NCBI RefSeq assembly: GCF_000971395.1
Contig: NZ_BBME01000017.1
Location: forward strand, 1 to 64,000
DNA: 64,000 bases
DNA from: Demequina iriomotensis
GTDB taxonomy: Bacteria > Actinomycetota > Actinomycetes > Actinomycetales > Demequinaceae
Reading direction: 5' to 3'
Part shown: positions 1,667 through 64,000 of the stretch, one piece after another
Numbering within the stretch: the stretch's first letter is position 1
Layout: each line of letters starts with the position of its first letter
Position numbers and translations under genes: made by a program
The notes under the pieces: generated by a model
What the model saw: the letters and a program-made list of their open reading frames with translations, nothing else
Databases searched by the model: none
What the model was told of the DNA's origin: nothing

Positions 1667-1676
1667 CGCATCGTCC
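1667..1676 (-). repeat. Copy of the iterated decamer GGACGATGCG (intergenic)
   Basis: CGCATCGTCC on the plus strand, 33 bases before the monooxygenase start. One of at least 20 exact copies in the window. This one is outside genes, so its presence is not a codon effect. Confidence 0.7.
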
Positions 1677-1708
1677 CTGCTCTCCCCTAGTCTCTGACCG
1701 ACTGCTCA

Positions 1709-3004
1709 ATGACGAGGAGAGACGTGCTCGACACCGCCATCATCGGCGCCGGCCCTGCGGGCCTCGCCGCCGCCCACGCCCTCAAGCAGCGCGGGCTGCC
1801 CTACACCCACCTCGAGCGCTACACGGCGCCCGGCGGGCTGTGGAACATCGACGCCCCCGGCAGCCCCATGTACGAGTCCGCACACTTCATCTCCTCGCGG
1901 ACCATGTCGGGGTTCCCGTCCTACCCCATGCCGGACGACTACCCCGACTACCCCGACCACCGCCAGATCCTCGCCTACCTCCAGGGCTTCGCGCGGGACA
2001 ACCACCTCGACCAGCAGATCGAGTACGGCACCGAGGTTGAGCGCGTCGAGCGCCTCGAGGACGGCTACCGGCTCACGAGGCAGGACGGCCGCACCACCGA
2101 GCACGCGCACATCGTCATCGCGTCCGGCGTCCAGTGGATCCCCAACGTGATCGACCTCCCGGGCACGTACGCCGGCGAGGTCCGCCACACCGTGACCTAC
2201 CGCAGCGCCAAGGAACTCGAAGGCAGAAGGGTCCTGGTGGTCGGCGCGGGCAACTCCGGCGCCGACATCGCGTGCGACGCCGCGCGCAGCGCCGAGCACG
2301 CCGCCATCAGCCTGCGCCGCGGCTACCACTTCATCCCCAAGCACGTGTTCGGGAAGCCCTCGGACGTGTTCGCGGACGAGGGCCCGACCATGCCGATGTG
2401 GCTCGAGCAGCGTGTCTTCGGTGTCCTGCTCCGCGTCCTCAACGGCGACCTCACTCGGCTGGGCCTGCAGAAGCCGGACCACAAGGTCTTCGAGACGCAC
2501 CCGCTCATGAACACCCAGCTGCTCCACCACCTGGGCCACGGCGACATCACCGCGCGGCCCGGGATCGCCACCACGAGCGGCACCACGGTCGCCTTCACCG
2601 ACGGCACCACCGAGGACGTGGACCTCATCCTGCTCGCGACCGGCTACCACCACGCCGTCCCCTACGCGCAGGACCTGGTCGGCGACGGCCCGCACCCCGA
2701 CTTCTACCTCACGGCCTTCTCCCGCCACGCGGGCCTGTACGGCCTGGGCTTCGTCGAGACGAACGGCGCCGCCTACGTGCTGATGGAGCAGCTCGCCCAG
2801 ATGATCGCGCAGCACATCGAGGACCGCGGCGCACGCCCCGACCGGTGGCTCGAGTTCGAAAACCTCATCGCGACCGACCAGCCTGACCTCACCCGCGGGA
2901 TCCGCTTCGTCGACTCGCCCCGCCACGCGGGCTACGTCGACGGCGTCGCGATCACCCGCTACCTCCACAAGACGGCCAAGCGCATGGGCTGGACCATCCC
3001 GTGA
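1709..3004 (+). CDS. Flavin-containing monooxygenase (FMO/Baeyer-Villiger type)
   Basis: FAD- and NADPH-dependent monooxygenase, 431 aa from the ATG at 1709. The FAD-binding motif is GAGPAGLAA near residue 13. A second Rossmann motif, VVGAGNSGADIA (about residue 178), should bind NADPH, and LLATGYHHAVPY near residue 310 is the usual ATG-type motif. A GTG at 1724 is the better start on ribosome-site grounds, because AGGAGA lies 4 bases before it; it would remove 5 residues. The stop overlaps the start of the next gene (GTGA), so it is translationally coupled to a short-chain dehydrogenase. The pair could oxidise a ketone or aldehyde substrate, which cannot be named from sequence. Confidence 0.85.
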   Translation: MTRRDVLDTAIIGAGPAGLAAAHALKQRGLPYTHLERYTAPGGLWNIDAPGSPMYESAHFISSRTMSGFPSYPMPDDYPDYPDHRQILAYLQGFARDNHLDQQIEYGTEVERVERLEDGYRLTRQDGRTTEHAHIVIASGVQWIPNVIDLPGTYAGEVRHTVTYRSAKELEGRRVLVVGAGNSGADIACDAARSAEHAAISLRRGYHFIPKHVFGKPSDVFADEGPTMPMWLEQRVFGVLLRVLNGDLTRLGLQKPDHKVFETHPLMNTQLLHHLGHGDITARPGIATTSGTTVAFTDGTTEDVDLILLATGYHHAVPYAQDLVGDGPHPDFYLTAFSRHAGLYGLGFVETNGAAYVLMEQLAQMIAQHIEDRGARPDRWLEFENLIATDQPDLTRGIRFVDSPRHAGYVDGVAITRYLHKTAKRMGWTIP

Positions 3005-3888
3005 GCCGCGCCCCCTTCGACCTCGCGGACCGCGTCGTGGTGGTCACCGGCGGCGCCGGCGGCATCGGGCGCGCCTTCAGCGCGCTTGCCGCCGCGCGCG
3101 GCGCGCGCATCGTCGTCGTGGACCTGCGGGACGATGCGGCCCTCGCGGCCGTCGACCGCCTCCCCGGCGGCGCCGCTCGCCACAGCGCCGAGGTGGGCGA
3201 CCTCGCCGAACGTGAGACGGCGGAGGCGATCGTCGCGCGGATCGGCGATCGCCATGGCCGCATCGACGTGCTGGTCAACAACGCCGGCATGACCAGCGCC
3301 GACCGCTTCGACACGCGCAGCGTCGAGAGCATCGAGCGCGAGCTCGCGGTCAACCTCACGGCTCCCCTGGTGCTCACGCGCCTCGCGGTGCCGCTGCTGC
3401 GCGCCTCCGACGACCCACGGGTGATCACGACCGTGTCGCTCGGCGGCATCTTCCCGCTCGGCGAGACGCCCATCTACACCGCGAGCAAGTTCGGGCTCCG
3501 CGGCGCGATGCTGTCGATCGCGCTCGACCTGCGCGACAAGGGCATCACCGTGAGCTCGGTGCTGCCCTCGGCGACGGACACGCGCATGCTGCGCCAGGAG
3601 GCGCTCGACGGCGGCAACTCCCTGCAGTTCCAGGACCCGCCGCAGTCCCCGGCGCACGTGGCCGCGACCATGATCGGCCTGCTCGACCGCCCCCGCCTCG
3701 AGGCCTACCCGCGTCCGAGCGAGTCCTGGCTGGTCCGCGCCGCGATGCTCGTGCCCGGGGCGCTCCCGCGCCTCATGCCGCTGTTCCGCGGCAAGGGCGA
3801 GCGCGGGCAGGCCCGCTACATCCGAGGGCTGCGCGAGCGCGGCCTGGTGCGGACCGTCGACGGGATCGAGATCGCGGTCGACGACTGA
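3001..3888 (+). CDS. Short-chain dehydrogenase/reductase
   Basis: NAD(P)-dependent oxidoreductase of the classical SDR family, 295 aa. The cofactor motif TGGAGGIG is at about residues 17-24 and NNAG near residue 95. Active-site Ser sits in TVSLGG and Tyr-x-x-x-Lys in YTASK near residue 160. The GTG start overlaps the monooxygenase stop by 4 bases, which implies one transcript and related chemistry. The acidic residue after the second beta strand (VVDLRD) suggests NAD(H) rather than NADP(H). It converges with the diguanylate cyclase gene, with only 7 bases between the stops and no visible terminator. Confidence 0.85.
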   Translation: MSRAPFDLADRVVVVTGGAGGIGRAFSALAAARGARIVVVDLRDDAALAAVDRLPGGAARHSAEVGDLAERETAEAIVARIGDRHGRIDVLVNNAGMTSADRFDTRSVESIERELAVNLTAPLVLTRLAVPLLRASDDPRVITTVSLGGIFPLGETPIYTASKFGLRGAMLSIALDLRDKGITVSSVLPSATDTRMLRQEALDGGNSLQFQDPPQSPAHVAATMIGLLDRPRLEAYPRPSESWLVRAAMLVPGALPRLMPLFRGKGERGQARYIRGLRERGLVRTVDGIEIAVDD

Positions 3889-3895: not shown

Positions 3896-5056
3896 TCAGC
3901 GCGACGCGGCGCCTGTCGAGGGCTCAGGGGCGCGGTACACGATCGCGGCGTCCCGCCCGGCACGCTTCGCCTGGTAGAGGGCGTCGTCGGCGCGCGCGAG
4001 CAGCAGGGACAGGCTCAGCCCACGCGTGGCGCCCGCGACGCCGTGGCTGGCCGTCGGCGCGGCGAAGCGCTCGCACGTCATCGACGCGACGTAGTCCCGG
4101 GTGACCTCGCGCGCGATCGCGGCGGCGTCCTCGGGCGAGGTGCCGACGAGCACCATGACGAACTCATCCCCGCCGATCCGGCCCAGCACGTCGTCCGGGC
4201 CGAGCGCGACGCGCCAGGCACGCGCGAACTCCACCAGCGCGCGGTCCCCCTCGGCGTGACCGCGGGTGTCGTTCACCCGCTTGAAGTGATCGAGGTCCGC
4301 GATCACCACGGAGCCCTCGGCACCGTCGGCGAGGGCGCGCTCCGCGCGCACCAGCAGCTCGCCCCGGTTGAGCACCCCCGTGAGGTGGTCCGTGGTCGCG
4401 CGGCGCTCGAGCTCGACCCTGGATCGCGCGTCGCCCAGCTGCGCGACCGCCAGCGTCACGGTCGCGGTGCTCGCCATCTGGATGAGCGCGGTCACCCCGC
4501 TGCCGGTCATCGACGTGAACGCCGCCCCCTCGGGTCCCTGGAGGAAGTAGAGGACCCACCGCAGCGTGTAGAACACGGTGAGCACCGTCGCCGTGATGGC
4601 GATGGTCCGCACCTCGGTGCTTCCCGCCCGCTCGCGATGATGCCAGAGCTCGTCGGCCGCCGCCCCGGAGCAGGCACCCAACGCGATGAGCATGTAGCCG
4701 CCACCCGCCCAGGCGTTGACCGCGGGATCCTCGAGGAGCGTGGAGACGCCGCCACCGGCGACCACCGTCGCCAGCAGCCACCACGGCACGCGCGCGCCAC
4801 GCACCCGCCGCGCAGTCGCGATCATGAGGGTGCCGCCCAGCACCGCGGCCATGTTCGCGAGCGGCGCGGTGTACCGCTGCGCCGGCGTCCCGTCGCCCAG
4901 GAACAGCAGCGTGCCGAGCGTGAAGGCGACGAGCGCGCCGAGCCATGCGGCCGCGACCGAGCCCGCGCCGTCGCGGCGCGCCACGAAGCCGGTGTAGATC
5001 ATCGCCAGGAGCACGAGCACGGCGAGCGCGACGCGCATGCTCAGCGCGTCGATCAC
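3896..5056 (-). CDS. Membrane diguanylate cyclase (GGDEF), paralogue B
   Basis: Probable synthase of cyclic di-GMP, 386 aa. Residues 1-210 hold about six hydrophobic segments, and a GGDEF domain follows (about 220-380). The signature DLDHFKRVND is near 255, and an intact GGDEF motif is at 295-299. The product-inhibition I-site (RxxD just before GGDEF) is absent, with GPDD in its place. The GTG start at 5056 overlaps the stop of the upstream paralogue (GTGA). The two proteins share topology and motif spacing and look like a tandem duplication. Confidence 0.87.
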   Translation of the reverse strand: MIDALSMRVALAVLVLLAMIYTGFVARRDGAGSVAAAWLGALVAFTLGTLLFLGDGTPAQRYTAPLANMAAVLGGTLMIATARRVRGARVPWWLLATVVAGGGVSTLLEDPAVNAWAGGGYMLIALGACSGAAADELWHHRERAGSTEVRTIAITATVLTVFYTLRWVLYFLQGPEGAAFTSMTGSGVTALIQMASTATVTLAVAQLGDARSRVELERRATTDHLTGVLNRGELLVRAERALADGAEGSVVIADLDHFKRVNDTRGHAEGDRALVEFARAWRVALGPDDVLGRIGGDEFVMVLVGTSPEDAAAIAREVTRDYVASMTCERFAAPTASHGVAGATRGLSLSLLLARADDALYQAKRAGRDAAIVYRAPEPSTGAASR

Positions 5057-6249
5057 AGCGCCTCTCCCGCCGCCTGCGCGAGCGGGCGCCCGTACACGCG
5101 CATCGTGCCGCCGCCGGCGGCCTTGGCCTCGTACAGCGCCATGTCGGCACGCCCGAGGAGCACCTCGGGGCTCGTCCGCGGCTCGACGGCCGCCAGCCCG
5201 TAGCTCGCGGCCGGCACGAGCGTGACGTGATCCGCCGCGGCCGCATCGAGCAGCGGCGGCACCGCGCCCACCCGTGCCCGCGCGCCGTCGAGCCCGACCG
5301 CGGACAGCAGGAGCACGAACTCGTCGCCGCCCAGGCGCCCGAAGACGTCCGCCGGTCCGAGCAGCCCGCCCCACGCCTCGGTGAAGGCGACCAGGGCCCG
5401 GTCGCCCGCGCCGTGCCCCCACCTGTCGTTGATCTCCTTGAAGCCGTCGAGGTCGCACATCACGATCACGTCGCCCGCCACGGGCTCCGCCGCCAGCCGC
5501 GACTCGAGCCGGCTCATGAGCTCGCCGCGCGAGAGCACCCCCGTGAGGTGATCGGTGGTCGCCCGGCGCTCGAGCCGGTCCCGCCGCCGCAGCTCGCCGA
5601 GCGAGCCCAGCGAGAACGTGACGGCGGCGACCCCGCCGATCTGCACGAGCCCGGTGAGGGCCATGCCCGCCGACGTGCCGAAGACCGAGTCGTCGCGCCC
5701 CTCGAGCAGCACCGAGACCCAGCGCGCGAGGTAGAGCGCGGCGAGGACCTCGGCCGCGAGCGTGAACGCCGTGAACGCTCGCGCCTCGACGCGCCTCGTG
5801 GTGAGGCGGTCCGGGCCGAGCGCGCGCAGCGCCGACCACGTCTCGGCGGCGATCAGCCCGTAGGCGCCCGCGAGCACCGCGAACATGAACGTCGAACCCG
5901 CCCACGCATCGTCCATCGGGCGCTCGACGGCCGCGCTCGCCACGGTGCCGACGAGCGCGAATGCGCTCGCGACCCACGGCGGCGTCCGTCCGCGGATGGC
6001 GCGCACCGCGTACAGCACGCACAGCACCGAGGCCACCCCGATCGCGTTGCCCACGGGCACGGTGAGCCACTGCACCGGGGTGCCGTTGCCGAGGTCGAAC
6101 GCGAGGCTCGCCACGGTGAGCCCCAGCGCGGCGCCCCACCAGCGCGGCGCGGACGAGGTCCATACGCGCGCGACGGTGCCGACGACGTGGAAGAGCGACA
6201 GCGCGACCACCACGGCGAGCGCGACCCGCACGCTCGTGGGATCGATCAT
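5053..6249 (-). CDS. Membrane diguanylate cyclase (GGDEF), paralogue A
   Basis: First gene of a two-gene unit, 398 aa. About six membrane segments (residues 5-215) precede a C-terminal GGDEF domain. The nucleotide-binding part DLDGFKEIND is near 267 and the active-site motif GGDEF at 307-311. As in its paralogue, the RxxD inhibitory site is missing (GPAD instead), so feedback by c-di-GMP through that site is unlikely. The ATG at 6249 is preceded almost directly by a near-palindrome (6253-6270) that covers the region where a ribosome or repressor would bind. A possible target is the PgaC-like glycosyltransferase at 22445-23767, by analogy with c-di-GMP control of PNAG synthesis. Confidence 0.88.
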   Translation of the reverse strand: MIDPTSVRVALAVVVALSLFHVVGTVARVWTSSAPRWWGAALGLTVASLAFDLGNGTPVQWLTVPVGNAIGVASVLCVLYAVRAIRGRTPPWVASAFALVGTVASAAVERPMDDAWAGSTFMFAVLAGAYGLIAAETWSALRALGPDRLTTRRVEARAFTAFTLAAEVLAALYLARWVSVLLEGRDDSVFGTSAGMALTGLVQIGGVAAVTFSLGSLGELRRRDRLERRATTDHLTGVLSRGELMSRLESRLAAEPVAGDVIVMCDLDGFKEINDRWGHGAGDRALVAFTEAWGGLLGPADVFGRLGGDEFVLLLSAVGLDGARARVGAVPPLLDAAAADHVTLVPAASYGLAAVEPRTSPEVLLGRADMALYEAKAAGGGTMRVYGRPLAQAAGEAL

Positions 6250-9455: not shown

Positions 9456-10382
9456 ATGGACCGGCATGAGACCTGGGAGGACGATGCGCTCGCCGGCTTC
9501 GAGCGCCGTCCCGTCGGCGCCGCGACGCTCGTGCGGGCGAGCGACGCGCCCGCCTCGCCCGTGGGCGTGGCGCTGCACGTGCACGGGTACAACGACTACT
9601 TCTTCCAGTCCCACCTGGCCCGCTTCTTCACCGACCGCGGGCTGCTCTTCCACGCGGTCGACCTGCGCCGCGCGGGACGCTCGCTGCGCGAGGGCGACGT
9701 CCCGCACCTCATCGACGACATCGCCGAGCTGGGCGAGGACCTCACCGCCGCGGCCGACGCGATCGCCGGCGCCCACCCCGGCCTCCCCCTGGTGGTCCAC
9801 GCCCACTCGACCGGCGGGCTCGCGGCGGCGGTGTGGGCGTCGGACGCTCTCCACCCCGCCCTCGCAGGGCTGGCGCTCGACAGCCCGTACTTCGCCCGCC
9901 GGGGTACGCGCAGCCAGCGCATCGGCCTGCGCGCCGTCCCGCTGCTCGCGCGGGCGCGTCCGCACATGGTGGTGCACGACGCCCCCTCGCACTACGCCGC
10001 TCACCTGCTCACCGACGCGGGAGGGGCCTGGGGGTTCGATGTCGCCTTGAAGAACCCCGCCGGCGTCCCCGTGCGCGCCGCGTGGCTCGCCGCCGCGCTC
10101 GCCGCGCAGTCCCGCGTCGCGCGCGGGCTGGACATCCGCGTGCCGGTGCTCCTCGCACGCGCCCACTCCTCCGGCCCGGACTCCCCCGACAACCCCCTGC
10201 TGGGCCTCCAGGACACGGTGGTCGACGTGGCGGCCATCGCGCGCCTCGCGCCTCGACTCGGTGCCCGCGTGACGGAGGCCGTCATCACCGGCGGGGTCCA
10301 TGACCTGTCGCTCTCATCACCCGTTCCCCGCGCGGCCTACCTGCGTGCCGTCGCATCCTGGCTCGAGGAGGTGCTCGCATGA
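9456..10382 (+). CDS. Alpha/beta hydrolase (lysophospholipase-like)
   Basis: Serine hydrolase of the alpha/beta-hydrolase fold, 308 aa, in the monoglyceride lipase/lysophospholipase group. The oxyanion region is LHVHGYNDYF near residue 33. The nucleophile elbow is AHSTGG near residue 108, and the catalytic His is likely the one in TGGVHDLSLS near the C-terminus. It has no signal peptide. The ATG at 9456 has only a weak ribosome site. Its stop overlaps the start of the glycerophosphodiesterase gene (ATGA). That coupling suggests lipid turnover: deacylation first, then cleavage of the glycerophosphodiester. Confidence 0.8.
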   Translation: MDRHETWEDDALAGFERRPVGAATLVRASDAPASPVGVALHVHGYNDYFFQSHLARFFTDRGLLFHAVDLRRAGRSLREGDVPHLIDDIAELGEDLTAAADAIAGAHPGLPLVVHAHSTGGLAAAVWASDALHPALAGLALDSPYFARRGTRSQRIGLRAVPLLARARPHMVVHDAPSHYAAHLLTDAGGAWGFDVALKNPAGVPVRAAWLAAALAAQSRVARGLDIRVPVLLARAHSSGPDSPDNPLLGLQDTVVDVAAIARLAPRLGARVTEAVITGGVHDLSLSSPVPRAAYLRAVASWLEEVLA

Positions 10383-13187: not shown

Positions 13188-13882
13188 GCAAGGTCCTTCT
13201 GTTGGCGCGCCTCACGGCGCGGGTCGTCGAGCGGAAGCTCGAGGTCTGTCGTGTCAAGGGTACGGGTCACCTGGTCGCGAAGCGCCTCCGCGAGCCGCTC
13301 GGCAGCCCACGCCTGCTTCGCACGGCCTCCCCGGACATCGTCCGGAGGCGTGAGCACCCGCGGCTCCCCGAAGGCCACGAGGAGCCTGCGGCCGGGGCGG
13401 GGCCAGATGTTCACGGACTCCCCCGTGCGGCGCGAGCCGATGATGGCGGTGGGCACCACCGGGGCGCCCGACTGGATCGCGAGCCACGCCGCGCCGCCGT
13501 GGACGGCCTCCGCGGTGCCGACGCCGCGCGTGCCCTCGGGGAACACGCCGATGACGTCGCCGCGGCGCAGGACCGCGAGGCCCTGCGCGAGCGCCTCACG
13601 CCCGGAGCCCTCGACGGTGATCTGCTGCGCGGCCCGGAGGATGGCACCGAGCGCACCGGTCATCATGCCCGCGCGGATGAGGAAGTGCGAGCCGCGCGGG
13701 ATCACGCCGTGGACCACGGGGCCGTCGATGAGGCCCACGTGGTTGCACACCACGATCGCCGCGCCGGCGCTCGGGACGTGCCCGCGCCCGCGCACCTCGG
13801 TGCGCCACAGCACGCGCGCAAGGAACCGGCCGACCCAGCGGGACCAGCGCGGCCCCCACCGGCTCGGGACGGATGCGGTCAC
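13184..13882 (-). CDS. plsC: 1-acyl-sn-glycerol-3-phosphate acyltransferase
   Basis: Transfers an acyl chain to lysophosphatidic acid in phospholipid synthesis; membrane-associated, 232 aa. The acyltransferase box NH-x4-D is seen as NHVGLID near residue 48, and the substrate-binding box FPEGTRG near residue 115. The GTG start at 13882 overlaps the cmk stop (GTGA), and its stop overlaps the der start. The cmk-plsC-der order is common in actinobacteria and other bacteria. A related acyltransferase specificity cannot be excluded. Confidence 0.9.
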
Positions 13883-14610
13883 TCGTTCCCCGCGGTCTCG
13901 GCGGACGATGCCTCGGTGGCCTCGTCCGCATCGTCCCCACGCACCTCGGCGACCAGGTCGAGCACGGCCTGGACGGCCTCCTCGATGGTGAGCTCGGAGG
14001 TGTCCAGCGTGTGGACCCCGTCCGCCGCGGTGTGGAACTGCACCACGGTGGAGTCCTTCTTGTCGCGGCCCAGCACGGCCTCGCGGACCGTGGCGAGGTC
14101 GGCGCCCTCGCCCGCGCGACGCGCGACGCGGATCTCCTCGTCGGCCGTCATGAGGATGCGCACGTCAGCGTCGGGCGCGATCACGGTGGTGATGTCGCGC
14201 CCCTCGGCGACGATGCCGCGCCCCTCGGAGTACCCGCCCTCGAGCTCCCCGGCGATGATGTCGCGCTGCCACTGCCCCAGCGCGGCGCGCGCCTCGAGGT
14301 TGGTGGCGACCTTGGACACGGTGAGCGCGACGGAGTCGGTGCGGATGAGCGCGCTCACGTCCTCGTCCTCGAGCACCACGCGCGGGTTGCGCGGGTCGAG
14401 CACGAGCGTGACGTTCATGGTCTCGACCACGGCGGCGACGTCGGACTCCTGGGCGAGGTCGACGCCCTCCCGCATGCACCACAGGGTCGCCACGCGGTAC
14501 GTGGCGCCCGTGTCGAAGTACGCGAGGCCCAGGCGGCGCGCGACCTCCCTCGCGACGGTGGACTTGCCGGTCCCCGCGGGACCGTCGATGGCGATGGACA
14601 CTCCGGTCAT
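13879..14610 (-). CDS. cmk: Cytidylate kinase
   Basis: Phosphorylates CMP and dCMP to the diphosphates, 243 aa. The Walker A loop is DGPAGTGKST near residue 9. The CMP-binding region follows with YFDTGATYR near 31, and the family motif VAEGRDITTVI near 130. An acidic C-terminal tail ([18 protein letters not shown]) extends beyond the usual length. The ATG at 14610 overlaps the tyrA stop (ATGA). A copy of the decamer lies in the tail-coding region (13927-13936). Confidence 0.95.
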   Translation of the reverse strand: MTGVSIAIDGPAGTGKSTVAREVARRLGLAYFDTGATYRVATLWCMREGVDLAQESDVAAVVETMNVTLVLDPRNPRVVLEDEDVSALIRTDSVALTVSKVATNLEARAALGQWQRDIIAGELEGGYSEGRGIVAEGRDITTVIAPDADVRILMTADEEIRVARRAGEGADLATVREAVLGRDKKDSTVVQFHTAADGVHTLDTSELTIEEAVQAVLDLVAEVRGDDADEATEASSAETAGNE

Positions 14611-26015: not shown

Positions 26016-26020
26016 CTACC

Positions 26021-43010: not shown

Positions 43011-43030
43011 GTGGCGCGGGCGCGCGCCAC
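43011..43030 (-). terminator. Terminator hairpin of uvrB
   Basis: GTGGCGCG (43011-43018) pairs perfectly with CGCGCCAC (43023-43030) around a 4-base loop, 5 bases past the uvrB stop on the minus strand. Confidence 0.55.
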
Positions 43031-43035
43031 CCGCC

Positions 43036-45099: not shown

Positions 45100-45160
45100 G
45101 CGACTACGGTACGCCGGGGCTCCGACAGCGGGTCGCGAGCGATGCCGCCCTCGGCGCGGG

Positions 45161-45754: not shown

Positions 45755-45804
45755 GGGTGAAGTCTCACACGCCCGGGCGCGCGCCGCCAACCAGCCCGGA
45801 CGCG

Positions 45805-45840
45805 ACGAAGGCCGCCACCCCGAGGGGTGACGGCCTTCGT
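45805..45840 (-). terminator. Terminator hairpin of rpsA
   Basis: Arms starting ACGAAGGCC (45805) and ending GGCCTTCGT (45840) fold almost completely, including CCACCCC/GGGGTG near the loop. It starts 12 bases past the rpsA stop. Confidence 0.85.
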
Positions 45841-45851
45841 ACGGGAACCGC

Positions 45852-47339: not shown

Positions 47340-47471
47340 TAAGGAATGGCTCCGGTGGACAGGGAATCGAATGGATATGTGCGGCCGGGCACGCGGGCGC
47401 GCCAGACCAACGAACATGCTACCTCGTCGCCCCTGATCGAGGCAATGCGGCGCGCCGCGAGGCGTGCCGGG

Positions 47472-48494: not shown

Positions 48495-48504
48495 GGCACC
48501 AACC

Positions 48505-51162
48505 CTAGTGTCCGGCGGTGCGCCAGTCACCGCCCGTTCCGACGTTGACATCGAGAGGAACGCTGAGATCGCCTGCGGCGTGCATCTCCTCCCTGAGAAT
48601 GGCCTCGACCGCCGCGCTCTCCTCGGGGGCTGTCTCGACCACGAGCTCATCATGCACCTGAAGTACCTGCCGGGATGCCAGACCTTCGTCCCTCAGGCGG
48701 CGCTCCACCCCGAGCATCGCCCGCTTGATGAGGTCCGCCGCGGAGCCCTGGATCGGGGCGTTGAGCGCGACCCGCTCGGCGATGTCGCGCCGCTGGCGGT
48801 TGGTCGAGGTGAGATCGGGGATGTAGCGCCGGCGACCGAAGATGGTCTCGGTGTACCCGTCCTGCCGGGCCTGGTCCACCACCGCGTCGAGATACTCGCG
48901 CACCCCGCGGAACCGCGCGTAGTAGTCGTCCACGAGCGCCTGCGCCGCGTTCACGGAGATGCCGAGCTGGCGCGACAGCCCGAAGGTCGACAGCCCGTAC
49001 GCGAGCCCGTAGGACATCGCCTTGACGTGCGACCGCATCTCGGGCGTGACGTCCGCGGGCGCCACGCCGTACACCCGCGAGCCCACGAAGCGGTGAAGGT
49101 CCTCCCCCGCCACGAACGCCTCGATGAGCCCCGCGTCGCCTGACAGGTGCGCCATGATGCGCATCTCGATCTGCGAGTAGTCGGCCGTGACCAGCGTCCC
49201 GAACCCCTCGCCCACCACGAAGGCCTCCCTGATCCGGTGCCCCTCGGGCGTGCGGATCGGGATGTTCTGCAGGTTCGGGTCCTTCGAGCTCAGACGGCCC
49301 GTCGCGGCGACCACCTGCGAGAACGTGGTGTGGATGCGGCCGTCGGCGCGCACCGACTGCGCAAGCGTCTCGATGATCTGCGAGAGCTTGGTCGCGTCCC
49401 GATGCGCGAGCAGCGCGGTGAGGAACGGGTGCGGCGCCTTCTCGTTGAGGTCGTGAAGGGACGATGCGTCGGTCGAGTAGCCCGTCTTGATCTTCTTGGT
49501 CTTGGGCATGCCGAGGCGGTCGAACAGCACCTCCTGCAGCTGCTTGGGCGAGCCGAGGTTGACACGGTCGCCGCCCAGCGCGCCGTACGCCTCCTCCGCG
49601 GCGCGATCGGCACGACCGCGCGCCTCGTCGGCGAGCGTGCGGAGATGGGCGGCGTCCACCGCCATGCCCGCATGCTCCATGCGCGCGAGCACGGTCAGCA
49701 GCGGGATCTCGAGCTCGGCGTAGAGGCGCGTCATGCCGCGCTCGTCGACCATGGGGTCGAGGACCGCCGCCAGCGCGCGCACGTGCGCGGCGCGCTCACC
49801 CGCCGCCTCCGCCGCCGAGCCGCCGAGGCCCAGGTCGAGCTCGTCCGCCGCCGCCCCCGCGTCGAGCGAGAGCCCCAGGTGACGCTGGAGGATCTGCTCG
49901 AGCTCGAAGCCGCGCTGATCGGGGTTGACCAGGAATGCGGCGATCTGGGTGTCGCCGACGATGCCCGCGAGCTCCCATCCCCGCGCCTGGAGCGCATGCC
50001 ATCCGTCCTTCGCCGCATGCAGCACCTTGGGGACGTCCGGGTCCGCGAGCCAGGCGGCGAGCGCGCGCTCCTCAACGGCGCTCAGCTGCGCGAGGTCGAC
50101 CCCCCACGCGACGTCAGCGGCCGCGGCGACGCCCAGCGCCCACGCATCGGCCTCCGCTCCCCCCTTGCCCTCCACGTGGAGCGCGACGGGACCCGCCATC
50201 GCGGTGATCGCGGCGACCGCGCCCTCGACGCGCACGACGACCGCGGGGGTGTCGACGGGGTCCGCGGCCCCCGCATCGGCGACGAACGGGAGCAGCCTGT
50301 CGCGCAGCGTCCGGAACTGGAGCGCGTCGCAGACCTCGTGGATCGCGGTGGCGTCCGCGCCCGCGTACTCGAGATCGCCGAGGGGCACGGCCACCTCGAG
50401 GTCGGGAAGGAGGTGGTTGAGCTCGCGATTGAGGCGGACCTGGTCCACGTGGACCCGCAGGCTCTGGCCGGCCTTGCCCGGGACGTCGTCCGCGCTGTCG
50501 AGGATGCCCGGAAGGCCGCCGTAGGTGACGATCCACTTCGCGGCGGTCTTGGGCCCGACGCCCGGCACACCCGGGAGGTTGTCGCTGGTCTCGCCGACCA
50601 GCGCCGCCATGTCGGGGTACTGCTCGGGCCTCACCCCGTACTTCTCCTCCACCGACGCGGGCGTGAAGTGCACGAGGTCCGACACGCCCTTGCGCGGATA
50701 GAGCAGCGTGACGTCGTCGTTGACCAGCTGGATGGTGTCGCGGTCGCCCGACACGACCAGCACGCGCAGCCCGGCCTCCCTGCCGAGCCGGGCGTACGTC
50801 GCGAGCAGGTCGTCCGCCTCGTAGTTGGCCTTGTCGACCGCGGTCACGCGCAGCGCTCCGAGCACCTCCCGGATGAGCGGCACCTGCGGCTCGAACTCGG
50901 GCGGCGTCGCGTCGCGCGTGCCCTTGTACGACGGCAGGCGCTCCGTGCGGAAGGTGCCGCCGGGCAGGTCGAACGCGACCGCGACGTGCGTGGGCTGATG
51001 GTCCTTCATCAGCGTCGCGAGCATCGTGGTGAAGCCGTACACGGCGTTGGTGGGGACGCCCGTCGACGTGGCGAAGTTCTCGACCGGAAGCCCGAAGAAC
51101 GCCCGGAAGGCCATCGACAATCCGTCGACGAGCAGGAGTGTTCCCTTGGTGGATTCGCTCAC
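48505..51162 (-). CDS. polA: DNA polymerase I
   Basis: Repair and Okazaki-fragment polymerase, 885 aa. An N-terminal 5'-3' exonuclease domain (about 1-290; LVDGLSMAFRAFFGLP, VSGDRDTIQL, GVGPKTAAKW) is followed by a degenerate 3'-5' exonuclease domain and a complete family-A polymerase (VTADYSQIEMRIMAHLSGD, the O-helix RRDIAERVALNAPIQGSAADL, QVHDELVVE). In the middle domain the Asp-x-Glu pair is lost (VALHVEGKG), so proofreading is unlikely. The GTG start at 51162 is only 18 bases from the divergent thioesterase start. Confidence 0.96.
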   Translation of the reverse strand: MSESTKGTLLLVDGLSMAFRAFFGLPVENFATSTGVPTNAVYGFTTMLATLMKDHQPTHVAVAFDLPGGTFRTERLPSYKGTRDATPPEFEPQVPLIREVLGALRVTAVDKANYEADDLLATYARLGREAGLRVLVVSGDRDTIQLVNDDVTLLYPRKGVSDLVHFTPASVEEKYGVRPEQYPDMAALVGETSDNLPGVPGVGPKTAAKWIVTYGGLPGILDSADDVPGKAGQSLRVHVDQVRLNRELNHLLPDLEVAVPLGDLEYAGADATAIHEVCDALQFRTLRDRLLPFVADAGAADPVDTPAVVVRVEGAVAAITAMAGPVALHVEGKGGAEADAWALGVAAAADVAWGVDLAQLSAVEERALAAWLADPDVPKVLHAAKDGWHALQARGWELAGIVGDTQIAAFLVNPDQRGFELEQILQRHLGLSLDAGAAADELDLGLGGSAAEAAGERAAHVRALAAVLDPMVDERGMTRLYAELEIPLLTVLARMEHAGMAVDAAHLRTLADEARGRADRAAEEAYGALGGDRVNLGSPKQLQEVLFDRLGMPKTKKIKTGYSTDASSLHDLNEKAPHPFLTALLAHRDATKLSQIIETLAQSVRADGRIHTTFSQVVAATGRLSSKDPNLQNIPIRTPEGHRIREAFVVGEGFGTLVTADYSQIEMRIMAHLSGDAGLIEAFVAGEDLHRFVGSRVYGVAPADVTPEMRSHVKAMSYGLAYGLSTFGLSRQLGISVNAAQALVDDYYARFRGVREYLDAVVDQARQDGYTETIFGRRRYIPDLTSTNRQRRDIAERVALNAPIQGSAADLIKRAMLGVERRLRDEGLASRQVLQVHDELVVETAPEESAAVEAILREEMHAAGDLSVPLDVNVGTGGDWRTAGH

Positions 51163-55321: not shown

Positions 55322-55425
55322 GCGATTCCCGATGACGCGTGGGACAGGCGGGGACGATGCGTCGCTTGGGGCAGCCCCATCGGTCGCGCGGTGGCCCACG
55401 CGTCACCTGCGTCCTTGGGAATCGC
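55322..55425. repeat. Large palindrome between convergent livF and livK, with a decamer copy near its centre
   Basis: Nested inverted arms are GCGATTCCC (55322-55330) with GGGAATCGC (55417-55425), and GACGCGTGGG (55334-55343) with its complement (55395-55404). The decamer GGACGATGCG lies near the middle at 55352-55361. It is about 104 bases long, the same scale as the palindromes at 11589, 26083 and 29460, but with different sequence. Each side also has its own terminator, so ending transcription is not its obvious purpose. Confidence 0.7.
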
Positions 55426-58372: not shown

Positions 58373-59719
58373 ATGCGCCACCACCGGGCCATGACGGCCA
58401 CCCTCGCCGCGGCGGCGCTCACGCTCACGGCATGCGGCGGCGGCGCATCGTCCGTCGCCTCGTCCGCCGCGCCGCTCGAGGCGACGCTGATCACCCGCGT
58501 CGCCCCGGAGGGGCTCACGGTGGTGGCCGTGGCACTCGAGTACGACCGGGTGCTGTCGCTCGCGCCCGACGGAGCGCAGCCCTCCGACTTCGCGGTCGAG
58601 GTCGAGTTCGACGCCGCCGGCGAGGAGGCGCTGAGCGGCGTGCGCACCGTGACCGCCGTGCGCACCGGTGCCGTGCCGGACGCCGAGGGCGCGCCCGCGG
58701 ACGGGCGCTACGTCATCCTCGAGCTCGAGGCGTCCGAACCGACCGCGGCCGCGTCCTACGTCGACTGGTCGACGACGATCACGCACGGCTACGCGCTCGA
58801 GGAGGGCTACTCCATCTCCCAGGTGGGCGATCTCGAGTCGAGCGACGGGCACGTGGTCGCGGCCTCCGACGCTGCGGTGCCGGTCGCGGACGTCACCCAC
58901 GAGGTGGTCGACGACTTCACGTCCGCCACCTTCGCCAGCGACGCCGGCCCGGCGCTCCCCTACCGCGCTCTCACGCCTGAGACGCCCGCGCCCACGGACG
59001 GCTACCCGCTCGTGGTGACGCTCCACGGCTACGGCGACAGCGGCGACGACAACCTCGGGCAGCTGACCGGGAATCAGATCGCCACCGCGTTCGCCGACGA
59101 GGCGCGGCAACGCACCGGACCCGCATACGTCCTGTCGCCGCAGGCGGATCCCTCCGACCCTGCCAAGGGCGCATGGTGGGACCCGTCGATGCAGGACGCG
59201 GTGGTCGAGCTGATCGAGGACTTCATCGCTTCGCACCCGGACGTCGACGCCTCGCGCGTCTACCTCACCGGGCTGTCGATGGGCTCGTACGGCTCGTGGG
59301 CGATCCTTGAGGACCACGCCGACCTGTTCGCGGGAGCGGTGCTCGTGTGCGGCGGCGGGATCGCCGACGTCGCCGCCGCGGCCGCCGCCCTCACCGAGGT
59401 CCCGATCTGGGCCGTCCACTCCGAGGACGATGCGGTGGTCGCGTACGACGCCGAGGGATCCGACCTGCGCGCGTTCCAGGCGTTCCAGGCGGCGGGCACG
59501 CCGGTCGTGTGGTCCGCCTGGGACGGGCTGCTCCCCGACGCCCGGCAGGAGTCCCTGGCGCGGGACGCCGTCGCGCAGGCGGAGCGGACCGGCAGCACCC
59601 ACCTCTTCACCACGATCGAGGCGGACACGACGCCCGGCTTCAACCACCAGTCGTGGATCCCGACGTACGCCAACGACGTGATCCTGGACTGGCTCCTCGC
59701 CCAGGATCGGGACGGCTGA
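58373..59719 (+). CDS. Lipoprotein esterase/peptidase of the alpha/beta-hydrolase fold (PHB-depolymerase-like)
   Basis: Secreted lipid-anchored hydrolase, 448 aa. The signal peptide ends in LTLTAC (Cys21). Residues about 30-205 form an N-terminal beta-rich domain that I do not recognise. The hydrolase domain begins near 210 (LVVTLHGYGDSG, oxyanion loop). The nucleophile is in GLSMGSYGSW near 302, a likely Asp in VHSEDDAVV near 350 and His near the C-terminus (FNHQSWI). The architecture matches predicted esterases that accompany polysaccharide-degrading enzymes. GAGGAG precedes the ATG. It converges with the GH43-GH51 gene, so a shared role in arabinoxylan breakdown is plausible. Confidence 0.8.
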   Translation: MRHHRAMTATLAAAALTLTACGGGASSVASSAAPLEATLITRVAPEGLTVVAVALEYDRVLSLAPDGAQPSDFAVEVEFDAAGEEALSGVRTVTAVRTGAVPDAEGAPADGRYVILELEASEPTAAASYVDWSTTITHGYALEEGYSISQVGDLESSDGHVVAASDAAVPVADVTHEVVDDFTSATFASDAGPALPYRALTPETPAPTDGYPLVVTLHGYGDSGDDNLGQLTGNQIATAFADEARQRTGPAYVLSPQADPSDPAKGAWWDPSMQDAVVELIEDFIASHPDVDASRVYLTGLSMGSYGSWAILEDHADLFAGAVLVCGGGIADVAAAAAALTEVPIWAVHSEDDAVVAYDAEGSDLRAFQAFQAAGTPVVWSAWDGLLPDARQESLARDAVAQAERTGSTHLFTTIEADTTPGFNHQSWIPTYANDVILDWLLAQDRDG

Positions 59720-59720: not shown

Positions 59721-59758
59721 CCGGGTGCCGCATCGTGGCCAGACGATGCGGCACCCGG
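59721..59758. terminator. Bidirectional terminator with embedded decamer-like halves
   Basis: Perfect 16-base arms (59721-59736 and 59743-59758) around GGCCAG, one base past the esterase stop and 9 bases before the opposite stop. The arms contain CGCATCGT and ACGATGCG, eight bases of the iterated decamer in inverted arrangement. Confidence 0.9.
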
Positions 59759-59767: not shown

Positions 59768-62700
59768 CTAGGCCTTCGGCTTGGCCGCCTTCGCCTTCGG
59801 CGCATTCACCTCCTCGCCGGGCCGGTGCTGCGGGCACGGGTTGGGCTTGTCCCAGCCCTTCGCACGCAGCTCGAACAGCGCGGTGACCCCGGCGGAGGCG
59901 GGCGCGCCCACCACGGTCGCGGTGACGGCGTAGCACGTGCCCGCCGCCTTCTTATCCGTCTTCCACACGAGGACGAACTGCCCGGATCGCTTGTCGTAGC
60001 GGATGCGCGACGGATCGACGGCCACGCCGTCGCCCGCCTCGGACGGATCGGCGCCGCACGCCATCTCGGCGATGGCGACCTCGACCTGCGACGGATCCGT
60101 GACCGCCTCCCCGCCCAGCTCCGCCGAGAACTTCAGCGGGACCGCGCTGCCGGCCTGGACCACGTTGACGTCTGTCATGTCCACCGGCGGGGCGAATCCC
60201 GTCACCTTCGCCGTGCTGATCCTCAGGAACGTCACCGAGTTGCCCGGGAACGTCCACTCGAACCGTGAGGCGATGCCGTCGACCGTCGAGGTCTCGGGCG
60301 TGACCGGCGTCGAGACGCGGGTGTTGACCGCGGCCTGCTTCGCCACGATCTGCGTCATCTCCGCCGTCGGTGCGACCGCGCGGTCCCCCAGATCGATCGC
60401 CGTGGTCGCGGCGCGTCGCTGCGCGTTGACCACCTTGAGGATGAGGTCGCCCGTCGCATCGTCCTCGGTGAGGACCTGCGCGAACGGCTCCGTCACCGCG
60501 TCGTCGTCGAAGGAACCTTCGAGCACGCCGTCGAGGTACAGGTCCACGTGGGTGCCGCGCACCGAGATGGTGATGGCGTACTCGTGGCCCGTCTCGAGGC
60601 TACGACCCTCCTGCGCGACGAGCGTCTCCTTCGCGCCGTCCGTCGCCTTCTCGATGACGTGACGGGTGTTGTTCCACCCGCCCAGGTTCCACCAGTAGAA
60701 GTTGCCCGAGTCCTTGACCCCGAAGCCGATGAGGAAGCCCTCGGCACCCGAGATCTTGGTGGCCTTGAGGTTGAGGTCGTAGTCCTCCGCGTCGAACGCC
60801 GGCGCGGACACCAGGGTGTTGAGCGCGCTGGTGCTCGACTGGACGTACGCCCCGTCGGTCACCGCCCACGAGCCGATGCCCGCGAGCGAGGTCCAGCCGT
60901 CGGCATCCCCGTCGGAGAAGTCGTCGGCGAGGATCACTCCGCCCTCCGGATCGGTGACGGTGACGTCGTCGTACCGCGCCGCGGTGGCCCACGTGGACAG
61001 GCCCACGGTGCCGCCGATCGGGGTCGGCTCGATGACGTCGCCCGTGGCGTCGGTCGGGACCACCCGGTCGCCCACGTTGTTCATGAAGAGCTTCTGAACC
61101 TCGTAGTCGGCCGAGCCCCACGACTCGTCGTTGTCGAACCAGATCATGTCCGGCGACCACTGGTAGTGGCTCGCGTTGGCGAGCAGCGGCGCGTAGGACG
61201 CCATCTGCACCACGTCCGCGTTGCGCTCGAGACCCGTCATGTAGGCGGCCTCGGACAGCGCGTTGAACCAGCGGTTGTCGAGAGAGGCGTACTCGCCCAC
61301 CCAGACCTTCGGGCCCTCGCGGTCGTACGAGTCGTAGCGATCGTTGTTCTGGAGGAACCAGCTCGGGCTGTTGTAGTAGTGCTCGTCCACCATGTCGACG
61401 TCGTTGGCGACGTTCTGCTCCCAGTGGAGGTCGAACGCGGCGCCCTGGTCGTCGGGACCGGAGTTGCTGATCACCATGACGTCGGGGTAGACGGCCTGGA
61501 TCGCGTCCCGGAACTGCACGAAGTTCGCGATGAACTCCACCGGGTAGTTCTCCTCGTTGCCCACCTCGAGGCGATCCAGCTCGAACGGCTCCGGGTGGCC
61601 CATCGACGCCCGCAGGGCGCCCCACTCGGTGGACGCGTCGCCGCGCGCGAACTCGATGAGGTCGAGCGCGTCCTGGATGTGGCGGTCGAGCAGCTCCTGG
61701 TTGTCCCACTCTCCGGCACGCAGCGACTGACCGCAGCCGTTCATGAGCGCGGGCACCACGGGCACCGGGAGCGCGCCGATGTCCTCGGCGAACTGGAAGT
61801 ACTCGAAGTAGCCCAGGCCGTACGTCTGGTTGTAGCCCCAGAAGTTGGTGTTGGTCGCGCGCTCCTCGACCGGCCCGACCGTGTCCTTCCACTGGTACGA
61901 GCGCGAGCGCTCGTAGTCCGAGTCCTCGTCGTAGCCCAGGTGGCTGTCGACGTTGACGATGCAGCCGCCCGGGAAGCGGATGAAGCCCGGGTTCAGCGCC
62001 TCGATCTTCTCGGCGAGATCCTTGCGCAGGCCGTTGGTGCGGCCCTTGTAGGTGTCCTCGGGGAACAGCGAGACCATGTCGAGCCGCAGCGTCCCGGCGC
62101 CGCCCGCCTGGACGTCGAGCCGCCCGGACGTGGTGGTGGACGATGCGGTGAGCACGCCCGCGTACTTGGCCCAGCCGTCGTCGCCGACGGTGAGCTCGAG
62201 CGTGTCCGAGATCGCCGCGCCGTCCGCGTCCACGAGCGTCACGGTCAGCGGGGTGCCGTCCGGCGCCGTGGTGCGGGCGAACACGGAGAAGTCGTACAGG
62301 TCGCCCTCCTCGAGCGCGACGCCGTCGAAGCCGCCGTTGCGCACGCCGTACGTGCCGCCGTCGGGGTTGTCGAGCGTCACCTGGAGATAGGTGCGGTTGC
62401 GCTCGCCCAGCCGCTCGTCGTCGTTCACGGTGGTGGCCGCGCCCGCTCCGCCGCCCGTCGACGTGGTCGACCACGCGGTCATGCCGGTGTACCCGGCGTT
62501 GTCGATGGGGAGGAACTCGAACGAACGGTTGCGCACGAGCTCGGCGTAGAGGCCGCCGTCCGCCGCCCAGTTGATGTCCTCGAAGAAGACCCCGTACATG
62601 CTGTCGGGGATCTCCGCGCCCGTCGCCGCATCGTCCACCGTGATCGTGTACTCGGCGGGCGCATCGTCCGGGTAGGCCGCCAGCAGCGCCGCCTGCTCGT

Positions 62701-64000
62701 CCGCGGTGATCGGCAGCACCGTGCCGTGACGCGCGCTCGACGGGAGCTGCGCCGACGGCACCGACGTCCAGTCTCCCGACGCGATGTCGGACGTCTCGAA
62801 CAGCATGTAGCCCTCGCCGCCGTGGTAGCTCGGCTGGTCGATCAGCATGTACCAGTGGCCGGGCTGCGCGTTGTCCTCGAACACGGTCGGGCCCTCGCCC
62901 TGCGTGAACGTGCCGCCCCACGGGTTGGGCTCACCCACGCCGATGTGCTCCTTGACCAGCTGCCATCCCTCGGAGTCCTCCGTGGGCAGCGTGCCGGACA
63001 CGGTCGCGGTGAGGTCGGTCGAGCGCTCCTGGCGGACGTCGAACGTCGCCTCGTCCTTGATGAAGCGGTAGTAGGTGTCGCCGTCCTTGACGACGGTCGC
63101 GTCGATCATGCCCCGTCCGGTGCCGCGCTTGACGTCGACCCATTCCTGCGGCTCCGTGAACGTCACGAAGTCGCGGGTGGTGACGTACATCATGCGGTTG
63201 TAGGTGGTCGCGAAGTCGCGGGAGGTGGTGTCGGAGGTCTCGTAGAGGTTCGAGGCCCAGTACACGACGTACTCCCCCGCGTCCTCGTCGTAGTACGCCT
63301 CCGGCGCCCACGTGTTCCCGGCGAGGTCGCTGGACACCACGATGGAGCGCTGGTCGCTCCAGTGGACCAGGTCGGTCGACTCCCACACGTTGAGGCGGCG
63401 GCTGCCGGTCTCCTGGGCTGTGCCGAAGTCGTAGCTGCCGTAGCGGTCGACCATGTTGAGATCCGTCGACAGCATGTAGAAGCGGTCGCCCTCGGGAGAG
63501 CGCATGACGAACGGGTCGCGGATGCCCTGCTCGCCGAGCGTCGACTGCAGCACCGACTCGGCGTTGTTGAGCTCCTTCCACGACGTCGGATCGTCACCCA
63601 CGCTCGTCGCGAAGTAGATCTCCTCGCCCACGGTGCTCGACTCCCCCTCGAAGTACGGGAAGAAGTAGCCCTCGTAGTCGGCGGTCTCCGGCGCCGGCTG
63701 CACCGTGGCGACGAGCACCGCGGTGTCCGTGGCCTCGCCCTTGCTGAGGGTGGCCGTGAGCGTCACCGCGACGGACGATGCGCCGGGCGCGGGGCGCGTG
63801 ACCTCACCGGTGGCGGTGATGACGGCCGCGTCGGAGGTCTCCCACGCGATCGCGCTGCCGTTGACTCCCGCGGTCGGGAGGGTGATGTTGCCCCGCACGT
63901 CGTCGAGGTTCGGGATGGTGAGCGCCGCGAGGTCGGCCGCCACGGCCTCCTCGTCCGTGAGGTCGCCCCGGTACAGCTCCGACACCTGGCTCTCGGAGAG
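59768..64000 (-). CDS. Multidomain GH43-GH51 alpha-L-arabinofuranosidase (N-terminus cut by window edge)
   Basis: Giant, presumably secreted glycosidase; 1410 codons are open and the 5' end lies beyond the window. Numbered from the in-frame GTG at 63985: an atrophied bacterial Ig-like domain (about 15-98); a GH43 five-blade propeller (about 105-445) with Asp157 in GIRDPFV, Asp295 in RGMID and Glu364 in GEGPTVF; and a GH51 module (from about 447) with an inserted carbohydrate-binding region (about 530-640). GH51 acid/base is Glu811 (EVGNEEN) and nucleophile Glu898 (WVGEYAS). A laminin-like/CBM insert (about 1017-1200) and a PxKF domain (VPLKF; about 1270-1385) close it. Both catalytic sites look intact. 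Likely releases arabinose from arabinan or arabinoxylan. Confidence 0.88.
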   Translation of the reverse strand, partial: LSESQVSELYRGDLTDEEAVAADLAALTIPNLDDVRGNITLPTAGVNGSAIAWETSDAAVITATGEVTRPAPGASSVAVTLTATLSKGEATDTAVLVATVQPAPETADYEGYFFPYFEGESSTVGEEIYFATSVGDDPTSWKELNNAESVLQSTLGEQGIRDPFVMRSPEGDRFYMLSTDLNMVDRYGSYDFGTAQETGSRRLNVWESTDLVHWSDQRSIVVSSDLAGNTWAPEAYYDEDAGEYVVYWASNLYETSDTTSRDFATTYNRMMYVTTRDFVTFTEPQEWVDVKRGTGRGMIDATVVKDGDTYYRFIKDEATFDVRQERSTDLTATVSGTLPTEDSEGWQLVKEHIGVGEPNPWGGTFTQGEGPTVFEDNAQPGHWYMLIDQPSYHGGEGYMLFETSDIASGDWTSVPSAQLPSSARHGTVLPITADEQAALLAAYPDDAPAEYTITVDDAATGAEIPDSMYGVFFEDINWAADGGLYAELVRNRSFEFLPIDNAGYTGMTAWSTTSTGGGAGAATTVNDDERLGERNRTYLQVTLDNPDGGTYGVRNGGFDGVALEEGDLYDFSVFARTTAPDGTPLTVTLVDADGAAISDTLELTVGDDGWAKYAGVLTASSTTTSGRLDVQAGGAGTLRLDMVSLFPEDTYKGRTNGLRKDLAEKIEALNPGFIRFPGGCIVNVDSHLGYDEDSDYERSRSYQWKDTVGPVEERATNTNFWGYNQTYGLGYFEYFQFAEDIGALPVPVVPALMNGCGQSLRAGEWDNQELLDRHIQDALDLIEFARGDASTEWGALRASMGHPEPFELDRLEVGNEENYPVEFIANFVQFRDAIQAVYPDVMVISNSGPDDQGAAFDLHWEQNVANDVDMVDEHYYNSPSWFLQNNDRYDSYDREGPKVWVGEYASLDNRWFNALSEAAYMTGLERNADVVQMASYAPLLANASHYQWSPDMIWFDNDESWGSADYEVQKLFMNNVGDRVVPTDATGDVIEPTPIGGTVGLSTWATAARYDDVTVTDPEGGVILADDFSDGDADGWTSLAGIGSWAVTDGAYVQSSTSALNTLVSAPAFDAEDYDLNLKATKISGAEGFLIGFGVKDSGNFYWWNLGGWNNTRHVIEKATDGAKETLVAQEGRSLETGHEYAITISVRGTHVDLYLDGVLEGSFDDDAVTEPFAQVLTEDDATGDLILKVVNAQRRAATTAIDLGDRAVAPTAEMTQIVAKQAAVNTRVSTPVTPETSTVDGIASRFEWTFPGNSVTFLRISTAKVTGFAPPVDMTDVNVVQAGSAVPLKFSAELGGEAVTDPSQVEVAIAEMACGADPSEAGDGVAVDPSRIRYDKRSGQFVLVWKTDKKAAGTCYAVTATVVGAPASAGVTALFELRAKGWDKPNPCPQHRPGEEVNAPKAKAAKPKA

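Follow-up and report, generated by a model that had tools for sequence, protein, structure and literature searches.

A probable DNA uptake word, and its related words, in the Gram-positive genus Demequina

Copies of the decamer in the window and the genome

Demequina iriomotensis, a harmless environmental bacterium, carries 22 copies of the decamer GGACGATGCG (12 plus-strand, 10 minus-strand) in the opening 64 kb of its contig C11 (NZ_BBME01000017.1, positions 1 to 64,000; hereafter the window). The genome to which the contig belongs (G000) comprises 3,164,437 bases in 27 contigs. Its place in Demequina agrees with the window's ScpA protein: among 80 named records retained for it, the first 16 are from Demequina and the next from a Demequinaceae metagenome-assembled genome. 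This report concerns the placement of the decamer, its counterparts in related species and its probable role in DNA uptake. The original prediction, made from the letters of the window, had listed 20 exact copies, and on recount every start and strand proved right; two plus-strand copies, at 16222 and 19430, had been overlooked. The core GACGATGC, which had been put at about 30 occurrences, was counted 44 times.

Three copies are intergenic, as had been stated and as the gene calls (made with a simple codon-based script, here and in the larger sample below) agree: 1667-1676 (minus), 26006-26015 (minus), which abuts the end of the coding sequence (CDS) 23942-26005, and 55352-55361 (plus). Sense copies reading Asp-Asp-Ala lie in plus-strand genes at 3129-3138 (CDS 3001-3888), 9479-9488 (CDS 9456-10382), 25000-25009 (CDS 23942-26005) and 59425-59434 (CDS 58373-59719). 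Those in minus-strand genes lie at 5905-5914 (CDS 5053-6249), 13927-13936 (CDS 13879-14610), 17421-17430 (CDS 17364-18221) and, within CDS 59768-63985, at 60455-60464, 62627-62636 and 62660-62669, the last two being 33 bases apart. A further minus-strand copy, 39357-39366 in CDS 38737-41577 (minus), is in the sense orientation in phase 0. Antisense copies in the Ala-Ser-Ser frame are found on the plus strand opposite minus-strand genes at 15342-15351 (CDS 14607-15653), 38523-38532 (CDS 36837-38720), 49459-49468 (CDS 48505-51114), 62138-62147 and 63773-63782 (both CDS 59768-63985), and on the minus strand at 58444-58453, opposite CDS 58373-59719 (plus). The two overlooked copies, 16222-16231 (CDS 16073-16822, minus) and 19430-19439 (CDS 19071-19988, minus), are plus-strand and antisense in an Arg-Ile-Val frame. 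Parts of the word had also been placed in the inverted arms of a hairpin at 59721-59758, between convergent genes. Its 16-bp perfect arms, which flank a 6-base loop, do hold two inverted near copies, matching at 9 of 10 positions; on the plus strand the hairpin is not followed by a run of T.

The excess of the decamer is real and larger than originally stated. One hundred dinucleotide shuffles of the window gave a mean of 0.94 copies and a maximum of 4. Among window 10-mers with at least 8 occurrences, GGACGATGCG had the highest order-3 Markov score (22 against 0.80 expected), and the excess persisted against expectations of 2.65 (order 5) and 7.9 (order 6). Each one-mismatch neighbour occurred at most 6 times. 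A genome-wide count, proposed in the original prediction together with codon-shuffled and Markov backgrounds, gave 1324 copies (680 forward, 644 reverse), or about one per 2.4 kb, against 3 for the reversed pattern. Further statistics were drawn from 364 kb of the genome (the window and further pieces, seven contig pieces in all), which hold 170 copies. Here the consensus is sharp: the 170 exact copies compare with 0 to 32 for each of the 30 one-mismatch forms, and with at most 14 for each form altered at positions 4 to 10.

Two stretches of the window, 26016-38522 and 39367-49458 (12.5 and 10.1 kb), are without an exact copy. The genes under both look highly conserved by eye (glycolytic genes, uvrB, rpsA). 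Another sequence, GCTGCGCGAG, is also over-represented in the window (14 against 1.8 expected); it recurs in pieces of Streptomyces and Nocardioides and is guessed to be a word frequent in coding sequences, not a signal.

Codons, strands and placement

Most of the copies in the 364 kb (129 of 170) are genic, and they bear on the choice of codons. When synonymous codons were shuffled 200 times, the decamer fell to a mean of 11.6 within coding sequences (maximum 23) with a global codon pool and to 13.3 (maximum 21) with shuffling inside each gene. The excess thus survived the synonymous-codon control on which the original prediction had made its own claim depend. GAT accounts for 730 of 7019 Asp codons and GCA for 490 of 15508 Ala codons, and these rare codons are used in 103 of the 129 genic copies. 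Accordingly, the assertion that the word is written with avoided codons stands for most genic copies; it does not extend to the 17 that read CGC ATC GTC (Arg-Ile-Val), all ordinary codons. GACGATGCG spells 81 of the 112 Asp-Asp-Ala tripeptides and GCATCGTCC 35 of the 69 Ala-Ser-Ser tripeptides. The tripeptides themselves are in excess: Asp-Asp-Ala occurs 112 times against 71 for Asp-Ala-Asp and 51 for Ala-Asp-Asp, and Ala-Ser-Ser 69 times against 32 for Ser-Ala-Ser and 45 for Ser-Ser-Ala. The surplus over synonymous shuffles and the skewed tripeptides together indicate that the word shapes codon choice and protein choice alike.

Confinement of most genic copies to three reading phases (70 sense phase 2, 33 antisense phase 2 and 17 antisense phase 0) is what would be expected if the decamer were a by-product of codon-pair and dipeptide preferences. 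Such an origin is barely credible and was rejected, as the synonymous shuffles leave the excess in place. It is further contradicted by the use of GAT and GCA, by the shift of the protein sequence itself toward the word and by the higher density of the word outside genes than within them. The genic surplus also speaks to the idea that the word marks a methylation or restriction target, or results from avoidance of a related word, which is highly improbable. A non-palindromic decamer could contain the target of a methyltransferase. However, restriction targets are generally depleted rather than enriched, and ten fully specified bases, with few one-mismatch forms, exceed, to our knowledge, what such enzymes read. 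Avoidance would hardly be expected to create the approximately 116 genic copies found beyond the shuffle means.

Strands alternate at random. The 170 copies divide into 89 plus and 81 minus, with 98 sign changes among 163 neighbours and no orientation bias in any of the seven contig pieces (p 0.51 to 1.0). Thus the argument that an even strand split weighs against a polar word holds for the larger sample as it does for the 12:10 split of the window, and a polar word of the Chi or KOPS kind is unsupported. Chi words are short non-palindromic sequences in high number that may vary from one bacterium to another, and a density of about one per 2.4 kb would suit a recombination hot spot read by RecBCD, AddAB or AdnAB and steering double-strand break repair. 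Chi, however, functions when read in a single direction and shows a skew on each replichore, contrary to the random alternation in all seven pieces of this one genome, and the Chi words known to us are shorter than 10 bases. A Chi-type role is therefore quite unlikely.

The word is enriched between genes: 40 of the 170 copies are fully intergenic (41 under a looser rule), while 9.9% of bases are intergenic. Its density peaks between convergent genes (9 copies in 3806 bases), with 19 in 16388 bases between tandem genes and 12 in 11598 between divergent ones, and is lowest in coding sequences (129 in 328350). Neighbouring copies at most 60 bases apart form seven pairs, four of them opposed and three of those four intergenic. 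Since about 4.6 close pairs were estimated by hand from the density, seven is no clear excess. Around the 170 copies no conservation of the flanks was found beyond codon periodicity.

Related words across the genus

A survey of GGACGATGCG in D. iriomotensis and 118 relatives showed 711 to 1564 copies in 14 of 43 same-genus relatives and 10 to 235 in the other 29, with 1 to 70 in 75 genomes outside the genus. Other words were first seen in samples of species poor in GGACGATGCG and then counted in the 47 whole genomes of the family set, which includes D. iriomotensis and has 44 members in Demequina. GGCCGATGCC reaches 1118 and GGCCGATGCG 1203 copies per genome; GGACGATGCC has 611 copies in D. 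sediminis (G026) and GGCCGATGCT 736 in G009. Reversed controls gave at most 46 copies in any genome. D. iriomotensis itself holds 121 copies of GGCCGATGCC, 298 of GGCCGATGCG, 168 of GGACGATGCC and 28 of GGCCGATGCT, the last being background since reversed controls reach 46.

GCCCGACGCT, common to G008 (36 against 1.4 expected in 107 kb) and G011 (21 against 2.7 in 188 kb), is probably a further dialect word; its 9-mer GCCCGACGC occurs 70 times against 19.8 expected in the same 188 kb of G011. Weaker words are GCCGACGCTG in G002 (7 against 0.6) and GCCGACGCCG in G032 (8 against 1.0), each in 40 kb. No clear word was found in 225 kb of G001 or 133 kb of G027. In all, 28 of the 44 Demequina genomes have one word at more than 600 copies, and the dialect words share a CGA[T/C]GC core. 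They are distributed mostly clade by clade on a FastTree phylogeny built from 11 proteins joined into an alignment of 2912 columns (42 taxa, three of them outgroups, with G012 dropped and seven family genomes unsampled).

The palindrome GGTCGCGACC is in excess in four Demequina pieces (L007, L010, L012 and L016; strand-summed counts of 6 to 8 against 0.55 to 1.05). Among 20-kb pieces of other actinomycetes, 27 have some 10-mer above the score threshold; several of these resemble words that coding sequences have in common, and 20 kb is too little either to show or to exclude an uptake word.

Conservation of individual copies in relatives, a check suggested by the original prediction, was followed at seven genic sites of the window. 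In other genomes of the GGACGATGCG dialect (A), the exact word stands in 34 of 71 aligned cells. Within the A clade 31 of 59 cells preserve it letter for letter; when the comparison was shifted in frame to six other positions of these genes, the pooled figure was 65 of 328, so the copies are conserved beyond their in-frame neighbours. At the same sites, genomes of the B, C and E dialects have their own word in 0 of 77 cells and GGACGATGCG in 4 of 77; genomes that are word-less or have another word show GGACGATGCG in 3 of 47. The Arg-Ile-Val site at 16222, which uses ordinary codons, accounts for six of the seven stray GGACGATGCG cells outside D. sediminis. The latter species has GGACGATGCC at three of the seven sites (those of the copies at 9479, 17421 and 25000) and GGACGATGCG at one. 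In the reverse comparison, from D. sediminis words with orthologs (three sites, 30 cells), GGACGATGCG was found in 14 cells and GGACGATGCC in 3. Relatives mostly show ungapped sequence with ordinary codons at the seven sites, so these copies arose by substitution. Taken together, the site comparisons indicate that words arise by substitution, outlast their surroundings and are mostly newly placed in each dialect.

Such an origin bears on the idea that a small repeat, mobile or replicated, left these copies behind, for which the high copy number and sharp consensus would speak. That idea is scarcely credible, as neither the flanks of the 170 copies, unconserved beyond codon periodicity, nor the alignments at the seven sites support it.

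A site for an intracellular protein (nucleoid, segregation, occlusion or regulatory), selected copy by copy, could explain why the word is present in every contig piece read and enriched between genes. It would be hard to reconcile with the dominance of exact copies over one-mismatch forms, as so strong a consensus is unlike that of regulatory protein sites (passages of PMC1626085). It also offers no mechanism for repeated re-spelling, and the sites are placed differently in each dialect, as the 0 of 77 cells shows. This alternative is very unlikely. Neither a segregation or nucleoid site nor a methylation target explains the repeated re-spelling of about 1000 sites per genome within one genus. 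Were the word of the Chi type, each re-spelling would require an enzyme and about 1000 sites to change together.

Pilus, competence genes and a probable uptake word

A search for competence genes, also proposed originally, put a PilT-type ATPase above the family cut-off in all 47 genomes of the family set; ComEC was found in 46 of them, the exception (G004) being 85% complete. In D. iriomotensis, PilA, PilB, PilT, PilM, ComEA and ComEC match family models. ComEA consists of SLBB and helix-hairpin-helix domains and its gene adjoins that of ComEC. The pilus locus (L168:850-7913, on C15) also contains PilC, PilD, PilN and PilO, named by eye and by gene order, and three large minor pilins, two of which match family models. 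The third, of 527 amino acids (L168:3453-5036), shows only a ricin-type β-trefoil lectin domain (Pfam, E 4.3e-12) and is perhaps a sugar binder at the pilus tip. A second PilT is encoded away from the locus.

PilN, PilM, PilD and the large minor pilins of this locus are 41 to 66% identical to those of the distant, motif-poor G017; compared with the same-word G005, proteins of the locus are 29 to 45% identical or have no ortholog-like match. The block looks horizontally exchanged. ComEC matches are split over two frames in D. sediminis (L193), G008 (L204) and the poor assembly G041, the first two being single-contig. Together with the lack of an orphan pilin (see below), the split suggests that competence may be gone in D. 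sediminis; sequencing error is possible.

Which protein might recognise the word was considered from the pilins and ComEA. The minor pilins of the cluster are not favoured, because species with the same word differ widely in them (D. iriomotensis against G005: 31.5% identity for the 221-residue protein and no ortholog-like match for those of 527 and 735 residues) while the motif-poor G017 is closer (41 to 50%). ComEA, with a pI of 4.2 from residue 71 on, was considered by a look at its matches only. None of 18 distinct proteins scanned exceeded the Pfam cut-off for ComP_DUS; the cluster PilA gave a sub-threshold match (E 0.0024).

The leading candidate is a minor pilin encoded outside the pilus cluster. 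When nine genomes were searched for prepilin N-termini, seven proved to have a single strong orphan prepilin away from the cluster. The gene for that of D. iriomotensis (contig C10, L208:8640-9056; 138 amino acids, N_methyl domain E 8.4e-9) has an acetyltransferase gene on one side and the 3' end of metE on the other, both neighbours having been named by eye. A profile of the C-domain, built from the copies of the seven genomes, matched at E < 1e-25 in 28 of the 47 family genomes, and in all 28 the match lies no further than 2 kb from metE. Four basal genomes (G002, G012, G017 and G032) have a diverged orphan pilin at this locus. None was found at the metE locus in G010, G019, G037, D. sediminis, G031, G036, G042, G020, G018, G004, G044, G045 or G046. 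G013 retains only an N-terminal remnant there; in G006 the contig ends inside metE, and the end of another contig has a weak match. D. maris and D. silvatica combine the A word with the pilin and D. activiva the C word with it, while D. mangrovi and D. aestuarii have words and no intact pilin was found in them.

In place of the pilin, G010, G019 and D. sediminis have open reading frames of 236 to 259 amino acids, alike by eye, between the acetyltransferase gene and metE (L247:1311-2084, L248:2236-2946 and L250:2885-3664). The pilin profile also weakly matches a second set of longer frames (about 180 to 430 amino acids) in many family genomes, for example G000:C19:217836-218096.

Five sister pairs of the tree differ in possession of the orphan pilin. 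With the five words added together, the member lacking it is in all five the poorer in copies per Mb (557 against 613, 489 against 560, 366 against 403, 392 against 530 and 302 against 330, with genome sizes rounded). This pattern is no more than suggestive of a link between absence of the pilin and lower word density. That the orphan pilin is the receptor of the word is a tentative assignment, a little short of even odds.

Two families, Pasteurellaceae and Neisseriaceae, are named as having sequence-tagged uptake in passages of PMC5031613. The DNA uptake sequence (DUS) of Neisseriaceae exists in eight dialects that agree with the phylogeny and keep one core unchanged, and it forms inverted pairs near terminators (passages of PMC3630211). 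The Pasteurellaceae uptake signal sequence (USS) is described in passages of PMC1626085 as non-polar, with a strong consensus, a preference for non-coding DNA, close opposed pairs and an origin by point mutation. It is of two subclade types (Hin and Apl), and its words outlast recent loss of competence. The same source has known uptake words spaced 'somewhat more regularly' than random.

With the DUS, a word of 10 to 12 bases in thousands of copies, the Demequina system shares a decamer word, dialects with a fixed core and type IV pilus machinery. It differs in the core, which is CGA[T/C]GC rather than CTG, in its high-GC Gram-positive actinomycete host, in its acidic candidate receptor and in being proposed from genome sequences. 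In Neisseriaceae the gene comP lies apart from other pilin genes; the Demequina candidate, too, is a minor pilin whose gene is outside the pilus cluster. The word resembles the USS in its non-polarity, strong consensus, non-coding preference, substitution origin and clade-specific types. It is unrelated to the USS, has no conserved flanking motifs and is randomly spaced, and there are at least five words in one genus as opposed to the two Pasteurellaceae types. Among actinomycetes, Micrococcus luteus is transformed with ComEA, ComEC and Flp/Tad pili, and the passages on its transformation (PMC6370729) describe no uptake word. Demequina is similar in having ComEA and ComEC and differs in its PilB/PilT/PilM cluster. 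Among the open-licence papers that the literature searches listed, none described an uptake word in an actinomycete by title or start of abstract, and among the matches listed by a text search for the decamer no title concerned bacterial genomes.

The match to the traits of known uptake words makes an independent uptake-word system the simplest account; all but regular spacing were seen, the opposed pairs in numbers not clearly above expectation. Copy number, sharp consensus, non-polarity, intergenic enrichment, clade-specific spelling and a pilus with ComEA and ComEC all fit, and favour the reading that D. iriomotensis uses GGACGATGCG as its DNA uptake word, a reading to which we assign a probability of about 0.8. 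Among the four candidates offered in the original prediction, an uptake-like signal is thus strongly favoured, and a segregation or nucleoid site, a methylation target and avoidance of a related word fit poorly.

Several observations weigh against an uptake word read by the orphan pilin. ComEC and PilT are present also in family members with no recognised word, so the machinery appears necessary without being diagnostic. The A word occurs in two clades separated by species that lack this word, and several genomes are rich in two words (907 and 671 copies in G041, 1081 and 669 in G014). Spacing is random (mean 2.1 kb, coefficient of variation 0.97 in the 364 kb) and not more regular; regular spacing is treated here as a usual rather than a defining trait of uptake words, one that Demequina does not show.

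As regards the pilin, its C-domain is acidic in 30 of 32 copies (pI 4.1 to 5.1; 4.1 in D. iriomotensis), while the DNA face of the known receptor ComP is positively charged (passages of PMC4906244). Five tested pilus and ComEA parts of D. iriomotensis are likewise acidic. None of the nine orphan pilins scanned, of 32 extracted, matched PF16732 (ComP_DUS) at E up to 1, and the protein is therefore not filed as ComP. Pilin alleles and words are mismatched, as G003, G005/G022 and D. iriomotensis all have the A word with divergent alleles. G001 and G027 carry the pilin without a word having been found in the 225 and 133 kb sampled, and seven genomes with 611 to 1079 word copies lack an intact pilin at the metE locus.

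If GGACGATGCG is an uptake word, the type IVa pilus would have a DNA receptor at the cell surface that prefers fragments bearing it, retraction of the pilus would pass the DNA to ComEA and ComEC, and the imported fragments would recombine into the genome. The word would then spread and persist by biased import (a form of drive), even where codon and amino-acid choice has to bend, because word-bearing alleles would be imported more often than word-less ones. A shift in receptor specificity, slowly followed by the genome, would give rise to dialects, and loss of the receptor would leave the copies to decay. The identity of the receptor with the orphan minor pilin adjoining metE is the least certain step.

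Comparison of genomes thus points, most likely, to a Gram-positive genus that has evolved an uptake-sequence system of its own, in which tagged DNA would be taken up by preference. In its fuller form the proposal is also probable: sequence-tagged uptake would have arisen independently in Demequina, with at least five decamer dialects around CGA[T/C]GC read at the type IVa pilus, possibly by the orphan pilin. Repeated loss of this pilin would have led to decay of the tag, leaving active, switching and decaying systems side by side. If so, this would be a third, unrelated origin of uptake words, in a Gram-positive genus, the earlier two being Gram-negative. Fresh species, dialect switches and apparent receptor losses would become available for testing the dispute between receptor bias and kin recognition. 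Little-studied environmental actinomycetes would be predicted to be naturally transformable, with their preferred DNA already named.

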